In this document: in pieces, positions 875 to 9,751 of the stretch
Position numbering within the stretch: the first letter of the stretch is position 1
Layout: every line of letters starts with the position of its first letter
Assembly: GCA_001914785.1 (NCBI GenBank)
Contig: MNDE01000017.1
Span: 1 to 43,497 of the forward strand
DNA: 43,497 nucleotides
Source: Acidobacteria bacterium 13_2_20CM_57_17
Lineage (GTDB): Bacteria > Acidobacteriota > Terriglobia > Acidiferrales > UBA7541
Direction of reading: 5' to 3'
The notes under the pieces: model-generated
The model's database searches: none
Told to the model about the DNA's origin: nothing
The model's input: the letters and a program-made list of their open reading frames with translations, nothing else
Made by a program: the position numbers and the translations under genes

Positions 875-912
875 GCTTGCGCTTCGCTATGATGTATTAT
901 ATTGTATCAATC

Positions 913-1287
913 ATGAAGAATGACGTAAAAAAGGGTGTCAAGCCCCTCCGGCAGAAAGCGCTGCCCGCCGAGCTGCGCCGGGCCCTCAGGGAGGCTCGGG
1001 AGAAGCGCGGCTGGAGCCAGAGAGACCTAGCGAGCCGTCTCAGCGTCGGCCAGAGGCATATCTCCGGCATCGAATCCGGCAAGATCGTGCCGCGCTATGA
1101 CACACTCCTTGAGCTGGTCCGTGCCCTCGACCGCGACCTCCTCATGGTGCCCCGCGCTCTTGTGCCCGTGGTGCAGTCCCTTGTCCGCGACCACCTGAAG
1201 GACCAGCCAGGTGAAGGCGAGGAACGCCCCCTTTACGTCGCCGACGGAGACGAGGACACGGCGGCGGAGCTGCGCGATGAAGTTTGA
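913..1287 (+). CDS. hipB: HipB-like XRE-family antitoxin/repressor
   Basis: This 124-residue protein has a Cro/C1-type helix-turn-helix at about residues 20-75 (LREAREKRGWSQRDLASRLS, then a recognition-helix region with HISGIESGK). The position directly upstream of hipA and the domain make it the HipB partner, which in this family binds DNA and holds the HipA kinase inactive. The ATG at 913 was chosen because the helix-turn-helix protein family begins near here; an in-frame ATG at 889 would add eight residues. No clear Shine-Dalgarno is visible. The C-terminal tail is long and acidic and probably contacts HipA. The stop overlaps the hipA start by 11 bases, so translation is coupled. Confidence 0.85.
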   Translation: MKNDVKKGVKPLRQKALPAELRRALREAREKRGWSQRDLASRLSVGQRHISGIESGKIVPRYDTLLELVRALDRDLLMVPRALVPVVQSLVRDHLKDQPGEGEERPLYVADGDEDTAAELRDEV

Positions 1288-2521
1288 TCCGAAAACAATC
1301 AACGCGCTCTCCGTGCGCCTACACAAAAGGCACATTGGGGTCATCACCCGCCTCGCGGGCGACCGCCAGCTTTTTGCATTTGAGCAGGAGTATATAGATG
1401 ACCCGAAGCGTCCGACTCTGAGCCTCTCCTTCAAGGGCAGCACTGGTGGGCTCGTGACACAAACGCGTCCCACGGCGCGCCGCGTGCCACCGTTCTTCTC
1501 TAACCTTCTCCCGGAAGGTCACCTGCGCGACTATCTCGCCAAGCGCGCGGACGTCAATCCCGAGCGCGAATTCTTCCTCCTCACCGTGCTTGGGGCCGAC
1601 CTTCCCGGCGCGCTTGTCATTGCGCCGCTTGAGGGTCAGGCGCAGGGGCCAAAGGCTCATCAGGATCATGACGATGAGCACGACCATGCGCACGACAGCG
1701 AACAACCGTTGCGTTTTTCTCTCGCCGGAGTGCAGTTGAAATTCTCGGCCGTCATGGAGGCCTCTGGCGGCCTGACCATTCCTGTGGACGGCATGGGCGG
1801 ATCGTGGATTGTCAAGCTGCCTTCAGCCCGCTATAAGGCGGTTCCCGAGAATGAATTCGCCATGATGGAACTGGCCCGACGCGTCGGCATCTCCGTCCCT
1901 GAAAACAAGCTCGTAGATATAGCAAGCATCAAAGGACTGCCCGAACAAGCGCATACAGTGGAAGGCCGAGCGCTCGCCGTGAAGCGTTTCGACCGAAAGC
2001 CGGGTGGGGAGCCCGTTCATATGGAGGATTTCGCACAAGTCTTCGGGGAATTTCCCAACGACAAGTATAAACGCCACAGCTACGCGAACATTGCCGGTGT
2101 CCTCTGGGCGGAAATCGGCGAGGACGCCATACTCGAATTCGTCCGCCGCCTCGTATTCTCCGTGCTGATCGGCAACGCCGATATGCATCTCAAGAACTGG
2201 TCCCTCCTTTATCCCAACCGCCGCACGCCCGTCCTGTCGCCGGGCTACGATTTTGTCGCCACGCTGCCCTATATTCCCAACGACAAGCTCGGCCTGAGCT
2301 TCGGCGACAGCCGCAGCCTTTCTGAGATCACCCCAGACCAGATGCGCCGCTTCGCCGACAAGGCAAGAATTCCAGCAAGCCCGCTCTGGAAGATCGCCGT
2401 CGAGACTGCGCAGAAGACCGTCGCAGGCTGGAAATCGCTCGAACAAGCGGACCTCCTCCCAAAGGACTTGCGCGCTTCCATCCAAAAACAGATTCTTCGC
2501 GTCGCTGCCACGGTGAAGTGA
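1277..2521 (+). CDS. hipA: HipA-family serine/threonine kinase toxin
   Basis: This 414-residue protein is full length for HipA (about 440 in E. coli). HipA kinases phosphorylate a translation factor such as glutamyl-tRNA synthetase and induce dormancy. The catalytic parts look intact: the FSLAGVQLKFS region holds Ser148, matching the autophosphorylated serine of E. coli HipA; WIVKLPS supplies the ATP-binding lysine; GNADMHLKN carries catalytic Asp302 and Asn307; and SPGYDF has metal-binding Asp325. The ATG at 1277 lies inside the end of hipB, as is usual for coupled hipBA pairs. An odd feature is a His/Asp-rich insert at residues 128-139 (HQDHDDEHDHAH), which could bind a metal and lies just before the ejectable Ser loop. 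Confidence 0.9.
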   Translation: MKFDPKTINALSVRLHKRHIGVITRLAGDRQLFAFEQEYIDDPKRPTLSLSFKGSTGGLVTQTRPTARRVPPFFSNLLPEGHLRDYLAKRADVNPEREFFLLTVLGADLPGALVIAPLEGQAQGPKAHQDHDDEHDHAHDSEQPLRFSLAGVQLKFSAVMEASGGLTIPVDGMGGSWIVKLPSARYKAVPENEFAMMELARRVGISVPENKLVDIASIKGLPEQAHTVEGRALAVKRFDRKPGGEPVHMEDFAQVFGEFPNDKYKRHSYANIAGVLWAEIGEDAILEFVRRLVFSVLIGNADMHLKNWSLLYPNRRTPVLSPGYDFVATLPYIPNDKLGLSFGDSRSLSEITPDQMRRFADKARIPASPLWKIAVETAQKTVAGWKSLEQADLLPKDLRASIQKQILRVAATVK

Positions 2522-3239: not shown

Positions 3240-4136
3240 CTAGATTGATCTGTGAGAGCCATCAATCGGCTGGGTCGGAGTTGCCTTTTCCGTCGCAAGG
3301 TGCTGCTGCGCTTTGCTGACGGTTAGCCGCGCGTAGTATAGCGGGTCGCTTTTCTCACCACTGCGAAAATCCGCGATCCTGCGGATGATTTCTTCGGGGT
3401 CGTCGCCGCGGGCGAGGGCCCGCTTCGCATAGATCCAATCGTGCTCGGACTGGCTCAAGGGTCGCGTTTCAGAAGACCGTTGCGTTAACAGCCTGTAGTG
3501 CGCGCGGAAGTTGTTGTCGATCGGCTCAGTGTGTAGGCGAAAATCTTGTAGGGGATGAATGCGGTCGGTGTGCTTCTCGGCTTGCACTCGAAAGTCGGTT
3601 TTATACTTTCGGTTGATGAATCCCGGGAGACGCAGAACGCGAGTGGAATCGGTGGCCGCAGGATCGCCTCCGAGTTTGCGTGCCATGGCACGCAGCAGGG
3701 CCTCGCCGTGTTCCCGGTCAATACCCTCGACCCGCCACACGATCTGGAATTTGTCAGGCGATGTATTTACGGTGTAATTCGGCGGCGGCACCAGGTTGGA
3801 TTGCCGAATCTTCGCCAAGGCCGACGGGCCATCGTGATCGATGTCCAGGTAAAGATGACGGATGGTCTGAATGTCCCCCTTAGTTCGCGTGCGTGCCTCG
3901 GGTTTCAGAGTGTTCATTCCGATGTAGATGTCGCATGCCTCTTTTTCATTCTTGTGCTGGAGCCATTCCTGAGCGGAAGTTCCCGCGATCCGTTCAGCAG
4001 TCGCGATACGCTGGATCGTTTCGCCCGTACCGCCGTTGCGGACCAGGACGGCAATCCGATCAGACGGATGAAAGTTTGTACGGATGTATTCGCTTGCTGA
4101 GATGTCCTTCATGTTTCGACTTTCGTCCGTCGTCAT
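3240..4136 (-). CDS. RepB-type DNA primase/replication protein
   Basis: This 298-residue protein has the three motifs of the RepB-like archaeo-eukaryotic-type primase domain found on plasmids and integrative elements: HLYLDIDHDG (metal-binding Asp98 and Asp100), TSPDKFQIVW (residues 126-134) and DSTRVLRLPGFINRK (163-177). It would make primers for replication of the element. The C-terminal part has a basic, helical zinc-free region typical of such proteins. The ATG at 4136 overlaps the natural stop of the upstream VirB11-like gene as ATGA, so the two were translationally coupled. The gene appears intact although its upstream partner is broken. Confidence 0.75.
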   Translation of the reverse strand: MTTDESRNMKDISASEYIRTNFHPSDRIAVLVRNGGTGETIQRIATAERIAGTSAQEWLQHKNEKEACDIYIGMNTLKPEARTRTKGDIQTIRHLYLDIDHDGPSALAKIRQSNLVPPPNYTVNTSPDKFQIVWRVEGIDREHGEALLRAMARKLGGDPAATDSTRVLRLPGFINRKYKTDFRVQAEKHTDRIHPLQDFRLHTEPIDNNFRAHYRLLTQRSSETRPLSQSEHDWIYAKRALARGDDPEEIIRRIADFRSGEKSDPLYYARLTVSKAQQHLATEKATPTQPIDGSHRSI

Positions 4137-4380
4137 TGGGATGGCTCCTGTGTCTGGTAGATCGCACAGTAATCGAAGGGGTCGCGTCGGGGTCGTAGCT
4201 GTTGATTTCGAGCACTTCCGAGACGTAGCGGCGTCCTGGTCTGCGCTTGATCTGAATCACGACATGGAGCGAGTCAGCGATGTTGCTCTTGATAGCTCGG
4301 TAGAGTAGTCCGACGCCGCTTTGCAACACGCAACTGGTGAAGCGGGCGAGGCCCTGCTTCGCCGAATTGGCGTGAATCGC
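4133..4380 (-). pseudogene. VirB11/CpaF-type secretion ATPase, C-terminal fragment with frameshift
   Basis: The minus strand reads AIHANSAKQGLARFTSCVLQ, then YRAIKSNIADSLHVVIQIKR and GRRYVSEVLEI. This is the C-terminal part of the VirB11/TrbB/CpaF family of conjugation or pilus ATPases (TIHANSA box, then the IxSxIADxxxVVxQxxR region). After YDPDA the frame breaks: shifting by one base restores FDYCAIYQTQEPSQ and a TGA that overlaps the primase ATG. One base therefore seems to have been lost near 4180. The nucleotide-binding part is missing: sequence upstream of 4380 (to about 4770) stays open but shows no Walker motifs. Confidence 0.6.
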
Positions 4381-4836
4381 TTTGCTGATGGAGTCATCGA
4401 GAATGAGATGTTCGATGGGTTTCAGAAAACCGACTCTTAAACCCTGTAGAACAGAATCCGTCCTGGCGGACCGAGTTGCCGAAGGAAGTGGAAATCCGTC
4501 GCGTTGCGCATCAGCCATGGAGTTCTGAGAGAGCAGCCAGTCCGGAAAGTAGTCGGGCAGGGCTAAGTTAGCGAGAGCTGTTTGGATCAAGTCCGAATCC
4601 GATTCAATTCCCGTCCGACCTCCTTTCTTTCGCAACGACCGTCTCCGGCATTTTCCTTGCATCGTCTTGCCACAGGTGCGGAAGATAAAGTCCGACGTGT
4701 TCCTCGAGGGAGAGAGTCTCCCTGCGCTTCCAAGTGGGGGTTCTGCCCGTTTCGCTTTGTCTACGGACACGCTAACCGATGTGCGGTCTCCGGCGAGTGC
4801 TCCTTCCGGCTGGTCCCATGTTAAGGGCGCTAGTGC

Positions 4837-5619
4837 TTACGCCTGGGCAAATACGATCCGTTTCTCTCCTTTCATTGAATCATGAGGAGCAGCTGCCACA
4901 GCCATGCTGTCCACAATGCCTTCCAGGGCTTTTGCTTCTTCTCGCGTCACGCGAAAATTCGTGGCCCGCGGGCGCCGCAAGATGCTCAAGGTAGCGAATT
5001 CCGCCCGCGATGAAAGATACGTCCGTTGAATCGCTGGCTCGATCAGTTTGAGCAATCGGATCTTTACGCGAAGGCGGTCTCCTCGGAACTTTTCCCTGTT
5101 CCGGATGAACAGCAGTTGTTCTTTCGGTTCCGGTTGAATCCGAGGCGGCTCGGATACCTCCGCCAGTCCGATGATTCCTCCCCGCGGACCGGACTCCCAC
5201 AAATACACCCTGTCTCCCAATTTGATCTGTTCCTTGTGCTGCTGGACGAGCCAGGGATGTTCCCTAAGGGTGCGAACTGCACTCCGAACGTCGGAGAATT
5301 CCGAGCTGGCCTTAAAGATCCAGGCGTTCCGGCAGTCTGCTGTGGTACCTATCGGCTCTTCCTTCTTCTCTTCGCGTTGTGCCCCGTCTTGAGCCGGCCC
5401 TTTCCCCAAAACATGCGCATGAGAAACGCACCAAGGAGGAACCCCGTTCGCCCCGCTGGTTTCCTTTCCTATGCGAGTCATTGCTCTGTGGGGGTCGATT
5501 CCATTGCCTGCCAAGCCGCCACCGGGCTTGATGACTTGAATCCCGATGCATTTCACGGAATCACCACGAACCTCTAAAACCAAAGAAATGTTTAGTTCCA
5601 ACGCCTTGTCCGATATCAC
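4837..5619 (-). CDS. EVE-domain protein with novel N-terminal region
   Basis: The C-terminal part of this 260-residue protein (about 99-245) is an EVE domain of the PUA-like fold: AWIFKASSEFSDV, then WLVQQHKEQIKLGDRVYLWE and GGIIGLAEVSEPP. EVE domains bind modified bases in DNA or RNA and are common in restriction-linked and mobile genes. The GTG at 5619 was chosen because GGAG lies seven bases upstream. The same GGAG-N7-GTG arrangement and a matching first ten codons (ISDKALELN against VSNKSLEVN) occur at the ssb gene at 9374. The first 98 residues are not recognised. On the minus strand it sits between ssb and the VirB11-like/primase pair, so it is probably an element maintenance or anti-restriction gene. 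Confidence 0.7.
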   Translation of the reverse strand: MISDKALELNISLVLEVRGDSVKCIGIQVIKPGGGLAGNGIDPHRAMTRIGKETSGANGVPPWCVSHAHVLGKGPAQDGAQREEKKEEPIGTTADCRNAWIFKASSEFSDVRSAVRTLREHPWLVQQHKEQIKLGDRVYLWESGPRGGIIGLAEVSEPPRIQPEPKEQLLFIRNREKFRGDRLRVKIRLLKLIEPAIQRTYLSSRAEFATLSILRRPRATNFRVTREEAKALEGIVDSMAVAAAPHDSMKGEKRIVFAQA

Positions 5620-5640
5620 AGTCCATCTCCAAAATCCGCG
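5590..5640 (-). promoter_or_regulatory. translation-start leader shared with ssb
   Basis: The segment 5595-5635 matches 9350-9390 at 32 of 41 positions. It covers GGAG, a 7-base spacer, the GTG start and the first codons of the EVE gene, and the same parts of ssb. This supports both GTG starts. Confidence 0.55.
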
Positions 5641-5812
5641 CGCTTTCTTGGGGCACGCAATGCTCGAATTCAGCCGCAGGGCTGATACCGACAGAGCGAA
5701 CCAATCTTCCGAATTTGGGTGTTCCGAAAAAAACAATATTCCCTCCCGTGCGTGGCCAGAAACGATCTTTTACTTCGCTTACTGAGTATTATCCTGGTGA
5801 TTCCGCTGGCCC

Positions 5813-6466
5813 ATGCATGTTAGAACCTTAGACTCCCGCCGGTTAGACGGCCGTCATCTCGGCGTCCGAGGTTTCTTCTTGGAAGCGCAGCAAAGCCTGG
5901 ATTTTGAGGAACTAGCCCATCGGCTGACTGCTTTTGGGCTGCGAACCTTTAACGAGTTTGGACTCGGTGGGCGTAACTCTACAGTCGCCGGCGTCGGTCT
6001 GTCCGTCGACGACTTTGTCTCGGCAGTCTTGGTGGAATATATGGAAGGCAGGCTTCAACATCGCGCCTCCCGTGGCGATTTGTTCTCCCTGCTGGCGACC
6101 GCCATGCGCAATGACATTATCGATTCCCTTCGTAAGGCGGCACATGCCCACGAGGAGAGCCGATCCCCGCTTCCTGCCCAACGGGATGCCGATGCTGCTC
6201 CCCTGTCGCTCGACGAATTGCCGGGATCGGCTATAGATTTTGCGGCCTCCATCGATGAAGAGCAGTACGGTGAACGCGCACGGACTGCCTTTGCCGGGGA
6301 ACCCGAACTAGCGGAAGTTGTGAGGGCGGTGCTGGAACTCAACCTCTACAAGCCCCGCGAAATAGCGGCTGAGTTGGGCATTACTGCAGCAGAGGTGCAG
6401 AACAGGAAGAAGAGGCTGCAGAGGCAACTCATCGATCACAACTTGGTAGGGAGGAAAACCGCATGA
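5813..6466 (+). CDS. sigma-70-like factor (ECF-type)
   Basis: This 217-residue protein has two conserved blocks. The first is a sigma-2-like block at about 65-115 (DDFVSAVLVEYMEGR, then LFSLLATAMRNDIIDSLRKA). The second is a sigma-4-like helix-turn-helix at about 168-208 (VVRAVLELNLYKPREIAAEL, then QNRKKRLQRQL). Such factors direct RNA polymerase to a small promoter set. It lacks an obvious full sigma-3 region, as in ECF sigmas. It is the first gene of a three-gene operon; its stop overlaps the next ATG as ATGA. The middle linker is long and acidic. It could instead be a sigma-derived transcription regulator without core binding. Confidence 0.65.
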   Translation: MHVRTLDSRRLDGRHLGVRGFFLEAQQSLDFEELAHRLTAFGLRTFNEFGLGGRNSTVAGVGLSVDDFVSAVLVEYMEGRLQHRASRGDLFSLLATAMRNDIIDSLRKAAHAHEESRSPLPAQRDADAAPLSLDELPGSAIDFAASIDEEQYGERARTAFAGEPELAEVVRAVLELNLYKPREIAAELGITAAEVQNRKKRLQRQLIDHNLVGRKTA

Positions 6467-6954
6467 GCGAACAGAAGGAAAAGGATCTTTTTCCGCAAAA
6501 CGCGCGGTTGGCTCAACTGTCCGACAGCTTGTACGGCAGCCCGAGCCAGCTGGATGCCGGGGAAGCCCGGGAACTCTTGCGGCGCGCAGGAATTGATCCG
6601 GAAGACGTCAAAGCACGCCTTTATCGAAAGTTTGATGCCCTAGCAAAAGAGTACGCGGCAGCAGGCCGGCCCGTTCCGGCGCTCTTGAAACAGGCGCTTA
6701 GTGACTTGCGTCCAGGCGTACCCGGTTCCCCAAAGGAACGAGCATTAGTTCGCGAAGCCCGAGCGGTCATCCGGAGTGTCATCGACCACGCTCAGCGTAT
6801 TCAGGAACGACTCGCGAGGCTGCCGCGTGTGACTTTGGCTACCGCCTATCGAAACAAGAAGGAACTCTCGGAACGGGACAAGAAACTCCTGGACGACCTC
6901 GCCGAGGATCTTTTGAAACGCAATAATCGCAGCCGCCCGAAAGACGGTCGATGA
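6463..6954 (+). CDS. unknown 163-residue protein linking sigma and protease genes
   Basis: No family is recognised. The protein is hydrophilic and mostly helical in composition, without membrane segments or cysteines. Acidic and basic patches alternate, and it ends in a highly basic tail (KRNNRSRPKDGR). The ATG overlaps the sigma stop and its own stop overlaps the next ATG, both as ATGA, so the three proteins are made together in fixed ratio. By position it could be an anti-sigma factor or repressor that the ImmA/IrrE-type protease cleaves. That is inference, as the sequence itself shows no anti-sigma motif. Confidence 0.65.
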   Translation: MSEQKEKDLFPQNARLAQLSDSLYGSPSQLDAGEARELLRRAGIDPEDVKARLYRKFDALAKEYAAAGRPVPALLKQALSDLRPGVPGSPKERALVREARAVIRSVIDHAQRIQERLARLPRVTLATAYRNKKELSERDKKLLDDLAEDLLKRNNRSRPKDGR

Positions 6955-7715
6955 GCGGGTCGCAAAAAGGCGGCGCCTATGCACGCGCCCTCGCGCGCGA
7001 ACTGCCGCTCGAGCATGGCGATCTGCGGGCAATCGCTTCGCGACTCGGACTCCAAGTTCGCGAGGTGGACGCTGATGGGTTTGACGGCGCCTTGATTCGA
7101 GCGCGCGAGATTCCTTTGGGAACGATTGCGGTCCGGCAATCGATCCGCGAGGCTGGCCGCAAGAATTTCACGCTCGCCCATGAAATCGCTCACTTTTTGC
7201 TTCCCGATCACGACCAGACGGAGCTCGTTTGCACCAAGTCCGACATCGGGAACTGGGGCGACTGGTCGCGAGAACTCGAGCGCGAGGCCGATGAATTTGC
7301 CGCCGAGCTTCTCCTGCCCGCTTCCGCGGTCCAGCCGATCGTCGAGTCCGCACCGCCTTCTCTGCAAGTGATCGAAAAAATCGCCCAGCGATTTCATACT
7401 TCTCTTTCGGCAGCGGCGTGGCGGTACTGCGATCTGGCGAAGCAAAGCTGCGCGATCGTGTGGGCCACGAATGACCGAATCGATTGGTCGAAACGCTCGA
7501 GCCACTTTGGCTTTCCGCTCCAAAAGGGGGCGCCCCTTCAGCAAGGCACGTTTGCGTTGCAATGCTTTGCGGGAACACCTGGTCCAAGGAAACCGCAGGC
7601 GCTCCCCGCGCGTTTGTGGATCTCCGCGACCGGTTTTCCAGAGGCCATATGGGAGGAGTCCAAGGCGCTGCCTGCTTACAACAGTGTAATTTCGCTGCTT
7701 TGGATCAAATCGTAG
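6951..7715 (+). CDS. ImmA/IrrE-family metallo-endopeptidase
   Basis: This 254-residue protein carries the zinc protease motif HEIAH (residues 77-81) in NFTLAHEIAHFLL and a second glutamate region LEREADEFAAELLLP (Glu112), the hallmark of the ImmA/IrrE (COG2856) family. Known members cut a repressor after a stress or quorum signal: ImmA cuts ImmR of ICEBs1 and IrrE/PprI cuts DdrO. Here no helix-turn-helix repressor is adjacent; the partners are a sigma-like protein and an unknown 163-residue protein in a fully overlapping operon. The region after residue 150 is longer than in minimal ImmA and may be a sensor. An IS element lies 59 bases beyond the stop. Confidence 0.85.
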   Translation: MSGSQKGGAYARALARELPLEHGDLRAIASRLGLQVREVDADGFDGALIRAREIPLGTIAVRQSIREAGRKNFTLAHEIAHFLLPDHDQTELVCTKSDIGNWGDWSRELEREADEFAAELLLPASAVQPIVESAPPSLQVIEKIAQRFHTSLSAAAWRYCDLAKQSCAIVWATNDRIDWSKRSSHFGFPLQKGAPLQQGTFALQCFAGTPGPRKPQALPARLWISATGFPEAIWEESKALPAYNSVISLLWIKS

Positions 7716-7770: not shown

Positions 7771-8679
7771 CTAGAAGCTGTTGCACAACCTGGTACAAGC
7801 ATCTGAAATGACTATAGTTGAGTTTTGGGAAATGCGATAAGCGGAGTCAGCAGCGCCGAAGGAGGGCGGATGGCGCGGTCCGGTCCGTTGCTGACCGAAG
7901 CGCAGTGGAAGAAGATCGCGCCCTTGCTCCCCAGGCCACCCAAGCAGCGCAAGGTGGCCGCCCGTGGATCGACAACCGTCGCGTCCTCGAAGGGATTCTG
8001 TGGATTCTGCGCAGCGGCGCTCGCTGGCAGGACTTGCCAGAGAAATATCCGCACCCTTCGACTTGCTGGCGGCGACTGCGGGACTGGGACGAGCAGGGCG
8101 TGTGGTTGAACATCTGGGGCGCGTTCCTGAGCGAGTTGAACGAGTGCCAGCAGTTGCAGTGGAGCGAGTCGTTTCTGGACGGCAGTTTTGCACCGGCGAA
8201 AAAAGGGGCTGCGGTGTCGGAAAACCAAGCGGGGCAAGGGGACGAAGTGGATGGTGGTGGTCGACGGCCAGGGTCTTCCTTTGGGAGACCACCTTCACTC
8301 TGCATCCCCGGCGGAAGTCCGGCTCGCGGAGACGACGCTCGCGGCCATCCGCGTAGGGCGGCGTCACCATGCGGGCCGACCGCGGCAGAAGCCGGTGCGG
8401 GTGATTGCCGACAAGGCTTATGACAGCGACCCGCTGCGCAAGCGGCTGCGGCAGCGCGGCAGCGAACTGATCTGCGCACAAAAAGAATCGCGTTCGTCCG
8501 GCGACGTAGGATGGCCGCGCCTTGCGGCGCTATCGCCGCCGCTGGGTCGTGGAGCGCACCATTGGCTGGTTGGGGAATACCGGCGCTTGGTTGTGCGCTA
8601 TGACCGCTCGCTCCAAATCTACCGGGCGTTATCGCCTGCTTCATGATCGTCTTACGGAGGGTTGTGCAATAGCTTCTAG
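7771..8679 (+). mobile_element. decayed IS5-family insertion sequence (IS427-like)
   Basis: Terminal inverted repeats are nearly perfect: 7771-7790 and 8660-8679 match at 19 of 20 bases (CTAGAAGCTGTTGCACAACC against its complement with one change). CTAG stands at both outer ends and is the likely target duplication, so the element proper is about 7775-8675 (901 bases). It encodes one transposase in pieces. It lies between the sigma/protease operon and ssb and is probably a late insertion that has since decayed. Confidence 0.8.
7870..8672 (+). pseudogene. IS5-family DDE transposase, multiply frameshifted
   Basis: The reading starts at ATG 7870 (SGPLLTEAQWKKIAPLLPRP), moves to another frame near 7960 (GGRPWIDNRRVLEGILWILR, RDWDEQGVW), again near 8215 (KWMVVVDGQGLPLGDH, ADKAYDSD), again near 8515 (RRYRRRWVVERTIGWLGN), then through YRRLVVRYDRSLQIYRA to a last piece ending in VLRRVVQ at 8672. 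These are the conserved blocks of IS5/IS427 transposases with DDE residues in the VVVD/DKAYDSD and E-containing VVERTIGWL motifs. One shift could be the programmed frameshift of this group, but at least four more are needed, so the gene is dead. Confidence 0.75.
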
Positions 8680-8750: not shown

Positions 8751-9374
8751 CTAATCGCCGGTACGCTCGTCGGCGAGTTCGCTCCCGCTTTGCGCCCCAT
8801 TGCTTGGAGCCAGCGTAAGGAAACGTACATCGCTTGCCACCACTTCTGTGGAGCGGCGCTTCTGGTTTTGCTTGTCGATCCAGTTGCGGATGATGAGCTT
8901 TCCTTCGACATAGACCCGCGCACCTTGCCGCAGGTTTGCGCTTACCGTTTCCGCAAGGTCTCCCCACACTTGAACCCGGTGCCACGTAGTCTTTTTTTGC
9001 CACTCGCCCAAACGGTCTTTGTACGACTCCTGGGTTCCCAAAGAAAAATTCGCCACGATCTGACCGCCTTTGGTATGCCTCACTTCGGCATCCCGGCAGA
9101 GTCGCCCCGCCAACATGACTTTGTTGACGGCGTTCTGTCCCTCGAGATCCAGCTGGTTCCCGTTAGGTTGGGCCGAGCTCGTCGGCAAAGAACGCTGCGG
9201 CGTCTTGCCGCTACCGTTTTGTTCCGCCGGTGTTTCTGCGGGCTGCCCATGCGGTCTCGGCGGAGAAGCCGGTGTGCCGGTTCCGCTCGGGGTTTGCGAC
9301 TCCTTTTCAAACGTTCCCTGCTTTGCACCCTCGGCGAGCGCAGCATTCACTTCCAACGACTTATTCGATACCAC
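8751..9374 (-). CDS. ssb: single-stranded DNA-binding protein with N-terminal extension
   Basis: This 207-residue protein has an OB-fold SSB domain at about residues 81-190: NAVNKVMLAGRLCRDAEVRH, NFSLGTQESY, WHRVQVWGDLAETVSANLRQ, GARVYVEGKL, FLTLAP. The order is unusual. A Pro/Gly/Ser/Gln-rich disordered segment of about 70 residues precedes the OB fold, and the normal C-terminal DDxPF-type tip is absent (the end is DERTGD). The GTG at 9374 was chosen because GGAG stands seven bases upstream, as for the EVE gene. It is probably an element-borne SSB for plasmid or ICE replication together with the RepB primase. Confidence 0.85.
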   Translation of the reverse strand: MVSNKSLEVNAALAEGAKQGTFEKESQTPSGTGTPASPPRPHGQPAETPAEQNGSGKTPQRSLPTSSAQPNGNQLDLEGQNAVNKVMLAGRLCRDAEVRHTKGGQIVANFSLGTQESYKDRLGEWQKKTTWHRVQVWGDLAETVSANLRQGARVYVEGKLIIRNWIDKQNQKRRSTEVVASDVRFLTLAPSNGAQSGSELADERTGD

Positions 9375-9751
9375 TTTACATCTCCAAATTGAGCGCCCTG
9401 TACAGCAGCACCCAATCCTTTTGAATTTCAGCAGCAAGCGCTGATATCTCTAAAGCGGGCTGCTAGCTCGGATTTTGCCATTTCGGCGCCGCAACATTTT
9501 CCCACCCACGGCCGAAACCGGTCTTGCTATTTCGCTTACCTGGTGGATGTACCCGGCTTGAGGACAGATATCTCCGCGTTCTTTTCACAACCAGAAGTCA
9601 ACACACTTGTCGCACGCAGAACGGCGTTGCGCATCGGCGTCGGGTAGGGCCCTCTGACTTGACAGCGCAAGTAAAATGAGTTTGCCCAGACGGAAGGGTT
9701 CGCCGCATCGTTTTTCTATCCTTGAGCAAACCGCGACAGGAGGTAAATTTC
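9375..9751. other. divergent intergenic region between ssb and the radical SAM gene
   Basis: No gene is seen. A TTGACA hexamer at 9659-9664 is a possible -35 box for the radical SAM gene, although no good -10 stands 17 bases on. A strong AGGAGG (9738-9743) lies 8 bases before the ATG at 9752. The ssb leader occupies the left end. Confidence 0.4.

Follow-up and report, generated by a model that had tools for sequence, protein, structure and literature searches.

Overlapping genes for an ECF-like sigma factor, a small protein with a CapH-like C-terminus and a CapP-type protease: a candidate controller beside immune operons in several phyla

CapP proteases are activated by single-stranded DNA and cleave CapH. 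They are described as DNA-damage controllers, in which this repressor is destroyed at immune operons after DNA damage (PMC13373217). The same paper describes CapK+CapS and CapW/BrxR as DNA-damage controllers located beside the same classes of immune operons. In the PprI-DdrO pair the cleavage site is found in a loop of the DdrO C-terminal domain (PMC10904395). M78 zinc proteases acting on a co-encoded or genome-encoded regulator are the common element of the PprI/IrrE-DdrO and ImmA-ImmR systems. ECF sigma factors are also known in pairs with anti-sigma factors, as those of the RseA and RsiW type, from which they are released by regulated proteolysis. A literature search on CapP/CapH, COG2856, CBASS, and anti-phage defence combined with sigma or ECF factors, which did not reach the original CapH/CapP, Bub and ubiquitin-like papers, returned no system made of a CapP protease and a sigma factor.

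The window analysed here is the whole stretch of 43,497 nucleotides of contig MNDE01000017.1. It contains three genes joined by two ATGA overlaps, and the coordinates and overlaps reported by an earlier sequence-only reading are exact. The features of the locus are the following.

4837..5736, reverse strand: divergent ORF with an EVE domain (PF01878, E 8e-12), conserved in both sister genomes
5482..5812, no strand: probable divergent regulatory region, from word enrichment across 30 such regions
5813..6466, forward strand: sigma-70/ECF-like protein, 217 aa (PF07638, TIGR02937, family profile)
5900..6166, forward strand: sigma region 2, residues 30-118, from the match of the AF2 model, with a DLV-x-[ED]-like core-binding segment
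6251..6448, forward strand: sigma region 4, residues 147-212, from the match of the AF2 model
6463..6466, forward strand: ATGA overlap of the sigma and middle genes, seen in the sequence; the same 4-bp overlap is present in 18 of 30 listed homologous junctions
6463..6954, forward strand: middle protein, 163 aa, all-helical, no Pfam family (alignment with 30 homologues, AF2)
6838..6930, forward strand: CapH-like C-terminal segment of the middle protein with invariant Arg130 (AYRNKKELSERD...), from the 31/31 alignment, PADLOC capH and hhalign
6951..6954, forward strand: ATGA overlap of the middle and protease genes, seen in the sequence
6951..7715, forward strand: CapP-type M78 (ImmA/IrrE, COG2856) zinc protease, 254 aa (PADLOC, PF06114, PDB 7t5t)
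7179..7193, forward strand: HEIAH zinc motif, residues 77-81 of the protease, invariant in the protease alignment
7278-7280, forward strand: third zinc ligand, Glu110, from the alignment

HTH_3/XRE genes are absent from the operon, in agreement with the earlier remark that no helix-turn-helix repressor is next door, and Pfam/TIGR-type profile searches found no HTH_3 domain in the middle or sigma protein. The nearest HTH_3/XRE gene (877-1287) is part of a hipBA-like pair, in which a HipB-like HTH gene and a HipA kinase gene (877-2521, forward strand) make up a toxin-antitoxin pair. Other genes nearby may be mentioned. The region 3240-4770 (reverse strand) includes a RepB-type primase gene (PF16793), and the C-terminal part of an ORF in it resembles by eye TrbB/VirB11 ATPases, possibly the trace of a decayed conjugative element. 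Positions 7775-8674 are taken up by an inserted element (about 900 bp, encoding an IS4/5-type transposase, DUF4096) that is absent from the two sister genomes, which are contiguous at this site; a 5-bp overlap resembles a target-site duplication. Downstream of the CapP operon, gene conservation resumes with ssb, encoding the single-strand-binding protein (8751-9437, reverse strand). It is convergent with the operon in all three genomes, a curious location given that CapP-type proteases sense single-stranded DNA.

The third protein had been labelled an ImmA/IrrE-type protease. Assignment to the M78 proteases is borne out (PF06114, E 1.4e-15), but the label is generic, and the protein is specifically CapP-like. 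PADLOC capP is the best of 5027 defence-protein models, matching nearly the whole protease at E 1.4e-55, and among solved proteins CapP comes nearest (7t5t, E 3.5e-18), ahead of IrrE at E 1.2e-4. The HEIAH motif seen in the raw sequence is part of a conserved zinc site: HExxH is present in all 33 related loci, and the E..A pattern of the third ligand in 32 of them. By homology, the protease of the window should be activated by single-stranded DNA, and its natural substrate should be the middle protein.

The first protein had been read as sigma-like, with regions 2 and 4, and both regions are supported by profiles, predicted fold and Foldseek. Pfam scores are weak for the family. The protein of the window scores 22.3 bits against PF07638 (Sigma70_ECF; cut-off 21.1) and remains below cut-off with Sigma70_r2 alone and with TIGR02937 (E 3e-8), the latter matching 15 of the 31 homologues. 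In a PDB search the profile built from the 31 homologues covers both regions 2 and 4 of the Mycobacterium ECF factor SigH (E 7.5e-10). Two well-predicted helical domains make up the AF2 model (mean pLDDT 77). Foldseek returned mostly sigma factors, with a best E value no better than 0.002; a flexible link between the two domains may be the reason. In VIA-align superpositions, residues 23-118 fit region 2 of B. quintana RpoE (2.8 A, 81 residues) and residues 147-212 fit region 4 of SigD (2.9 A, 62 residues). The core-binding region 2, on which the earlier reading had staked its model, is thus found by structure prediction and profile alike. Most homologues retain the DLV-x-[ED]-like core-binding segment. 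In the region 2.2-like segment D or E is found at position 67 in 26 of 30 sequences, and at position 71 in 23 of 30; the window protein has Ala71 at the latter. One large clade has diverged in the part of region 2 that normally reads the -10 element. A match due to a helix-turn-helix only was considered and rejected, because the evidence for region 2 is independent of that for region 4. By three independent routes the first protein is a predicted ECF-like sigma factor.

The middle protein ends with the basic tail KRNNRSRPKDGR, as had been noticed. It belongs to no Pfam family, and has no fold match in PDB, which is no proof of a new fold. AF2 predicts helices and a separate C-terminal helix (pLDDT 76), and no known anti-sigma domain was matched by Pfam, PDB profile or fold. 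Apart from the start Met, Arg130 is the sole residue kept in all 31 homologues. It is located about 33 residues before the C-terminus and is part of a motif resembling [FYHA]R[ND]....[LM][ST]..D in the last 40 residues or so. The PADLOC capH profile matches 19 of the 31 homologues (best E 8.8e-5; E 0.026 for the window protein alone), and any other PADLOC family matches at most one. When the middle profile was aligned by hhalign to 36 CapH-type HTH proteins encoded at other CapP loci, the score was 27.3 and only the Arg segment (FR..) was aligned; the highest score from 200 column-shuffled profiles was 17.9. The middle protein is therefore described as a CapH C-terminal segment carried by a different N-terminal body. 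Such a CapH-like, protease-substrate-like terminus, as judged from sequence, supports the middle protein as the part that would be cleaved; as DdrO is cut in a C-terminal loop (PMC10904395), the Arg segment is the likely cut region. The middle protein is accordingly called here a candidate anti-sigma factor and a candidate CapP substrate.

Some variants of the middle gene are worth reporting. Beside one complete triad (L049, 10503-10781, reverse strand) there is a 92-aa paralogue of the N-terminal half, devoid of the Arg-motif tail, possibly an uncleavable partner. In Variovorax (L114, 1042-1933) two near-identical middle genes lie in tandem between the sigma and CapP genes. In genome G022 (L002, 850-1992) the sigma gene is frameshifted close to its end, so that sigma and middle protein are fused in frame (380 aa); the frameshift may be a sequencing error.

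Two further genomes from this genus carry the three genes, at 91-95% amino acid identity and with the same surroundings; other, weak tblastn matches to the middle protein in the genus (L004, L005, L006) turned out to be unrelated ORFs. CapP is encoded at E <= 1e-20 in 30 of 396 genomes of the phylum, and among the loci returned by the phylum search 11, window included, have the order sigma-middle-CapP. A GTDB scan seeded with the CapP proteins of the phylum gave 80 loci, 19 of which have sigma, middle and CapP genes, counts that are no estimate of frequency since the seeds were sigma-type CapP. Record labels of these triads are Acidobacteria/Bryobacterales, beta-, gamma- and deltaproteobacteria, Spartobacteria, Anaerolineae, Bacteroidales/Flavobacteriaceae and Nitrospira. 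One locus of the scan (L064) has sigma and CapP, with no detectable middle gene. Altogether the order is observed in about 30 distinct loci of at least seven phyla. Conservation of the middle gene with the other two had been proposed as a test, and the gene is found repeatedly between them. The arrangement is not due to chance, because the order recurs in some 30 loci where a middle gene separates the other two, and the listed sigma/middle junctions are 4-bp overlaps in 18 of 30 cases.

Loci with sigma, middle and CapP genes are referred to as type A. A second type features sigma, a different short protein and CapP (about ten loci: L072, L079, L106, L107, L115, L117, L118, L121, L124, L133); in L106, L107 and L121 the sigma protein is above the Pfam Sigma70_r2 cut-off. 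A shared Arg motif in these short partners was considered and dropped, since hhalign aligned them elsewhere or below shuffled controls. Most other CapP loci have a CapH-type XRE HTH gene. In L057 and L095 CapP is preceded by an excisionase/MerR-like HTH protein ending in AARG..[LI]S..D, a possible further type of CapP partner. Two triads are plasmid-borne and annotated as hypothetical protein, hypothetical protein and ImmA/IrrE; the middle protein of the window itself had no match among plasmids and phages. In the viral_contigs scan CapP relatives had no sigma genes detectable by the type-A sigma profile, and one (L178) had the middle protein only.

Immune operons, with either a CBASS cyclase or E1/ThiF (Bub-like) genes, are placed head-to-head with about half of the type-A loci. 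PADLOC confirmed a CBASS cyclase (CD-NTase) in this position in six (L041, L043, L044, L084, L112, L116); HORMA and TRIP13 accompany that of L043, phospholipase effectors those of L044 and of L116 (Collimonas sp. OK307). ThiF/E1 genes are head-to-head in eight type-A loci (L045, L046, L047, L050, L052, L058, L063, L071), and neighbour the second-type locus L051 as well; L048 clusters by sequence with the ThiF/E1 group. A small DUF2188/DUF3892-like cassette is common to L077, L108, L125 and the two plasmids. In the window the divergent EVE-domain ORF is a candidate controlled gene and no proven immune operon. Its N-terminal part is weakly constrained; therefore the true start is probably further inside the ORF, and the intergenic region longer. 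The left border of the putative regulatory region is uncertain for this reason. The dN/dS values obtained (0.35 to 0.9) come from few changes and give weak support.

In the 30 upstream regions the most over-represented 8-mer is TTCGGACA (5 loci, 0.2 expected), and the most over-represented 7-mer is TCGGACA (7 loci, 0.7 expected). Against 100 dinucleotide-preserving shuffles the 8-mer exceeds the maximum, and the 7-mer equals it. The window region hosts one copy of the 7-mer, as TGTCCGA (5607-5613), and two TTCCGAA words 15 bp apart (5707-5713 and 5722-5728). In some loci the enriched word forms the palindrome GGAC..GTCC, a site equally compatible with a dimeric repressor. A simple scan for palindromes gave significant results for few loci, and none for the window. 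The word may be part of a sigma promoter or an operator, and is suggestive only.

Most likely the triad represents another form of the CapP controller: instead of the CapH HTH it has a sigma factor together with a partner whose C-terminus is CapH-like. It resembles CapH+CapP in the protease family and zinc site, in the CBASS/Bub-type neighbours of about half of the relatives, and in the substrate-like C-terminus common to CapH and the middle protein. It differs in having no XRE HTH repressor. Two proteins stand in its place, an ECF-like sigma factor and a helical partner; therefore the logic may be activation rather than derepression. As in PprI/IrrE-DdrO and ImmA-ImmR, an M78 zinc protease accompanies a regulator, but the presumed substrate is no HTH repressor, the operon includes a sigma factor, and CapP is a closer homologue of the protease than IrrE (3.5e-18 vs 1.2e-4). 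As in RseA/RsiW-type pairs, the sigma gene is followed by an overlapping small gene and release by proteolysis is presumed; in contrast, the partner is soluble and dissimilar to known anti-sigma domains, and the operon itself includes the gene of a cytosolic zinc protease. CapK+CapS and CapW/BrxR rely on kinase/STAS or WYL chemistry, and feature neither sigma factor nor protease.

The simplest logic would be release of the sigma factor from its partner. Through overlapping translation the middle protein would be produced along with the sigma factor, bind it and keep it inactive. Single-stranded DNA arising from damage or phage infection would activate CapP, the partner would be cut within the C-terminal Arg motif, and the freed sigma factor would transcribe the divergent, often immune, operon and its own. 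We regard as fairly probable this CapP-type, probably DNA-damage-responsive controller, in which CapH is replaced by an ECF-like sigma factor and a partner cut by CapP. The sequence-only reading had supposed a sigma factor held by the middle protein and freed by proteolysis. It is partly supported, by region 2, by the conservation of the middle gene and by the CapH-like C-terminus of the middle protein, while the CapP identity and the frequent CBASS/Bub-type neighbours had been missed.

The sigma-like protein could also be a DNA-binding co-repressor doing with the middle protein the job of CapH, so that cleavage by CapP would derepress the divergent operon. Known CapP systems act via derepression (PMC13373217), region 2 is degenerate in one clade, inverted repeats are found near -60 in L041, L112 and L088, and RefSeq names the two plasmid-borne homologues hypothetical rather than sigma. 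Yet most members retain core-binding residues of the DLVx[ED] type, the family profile covers regions 2 and 4 of true ECF factors, the window protein passes PF07638, and clear sigma factors are found in the second operon type; we consider a co-repressor rather unlikely.

That the three genes are nearly always together would also fit cleavage of the sigma factor itself, presented to CapP by the middle protein as adaptor or chaperone, in a switch turning transcription off. This is very improbable, as the CapH-like C-terminus is on the middle protein and not on sigma. Even less credit is given to a toxin-antitoxin-like addiction unit, with CapP as toxin and the other two proteins as antitoxin and regulator. 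TA function has been ascribed to COG2856/Xre pairs (PMC10538038), the PDB entry 7t5t bears the label CapP toxin, and the triad lies beside mobile-element remnants, but a controller better explains why CBASS and E1 operons are repeatedly found head-to-head with the triad.

Release of the sigma factor from a cleaved partner remains the preferred reading, and the occurrence of the trio beside antiviral operons in many phyla suggests a sigma factor that is set free by DNA damage and turns on immunity genes. We lean, by a little, towards a widespread and undescribed class of controllers, in which CapP activated by single-stranded DNA frees an ECF sigma factor by cutting its dedicated partner at whose end the CapH-like segment lies, and CBASS and ubiquitin-like immune operons are actively driven by damage instead of being derepressed. 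How abortive-infection operons stay off and get switched on is a current question, and in the literature searched their controllers are of the HTH, WYL and kinase types only. A sigma-factor controller on CBASS/Bub-like operons in several phyla would be, if true, a further solution. CapP would then work with interchangeable regulators via a common C-terminal segment, many hypothetical proteins would gain a testable role, and control of a sigma factor by cytosolic, non-membrane M78 proteolysis becomes testable.
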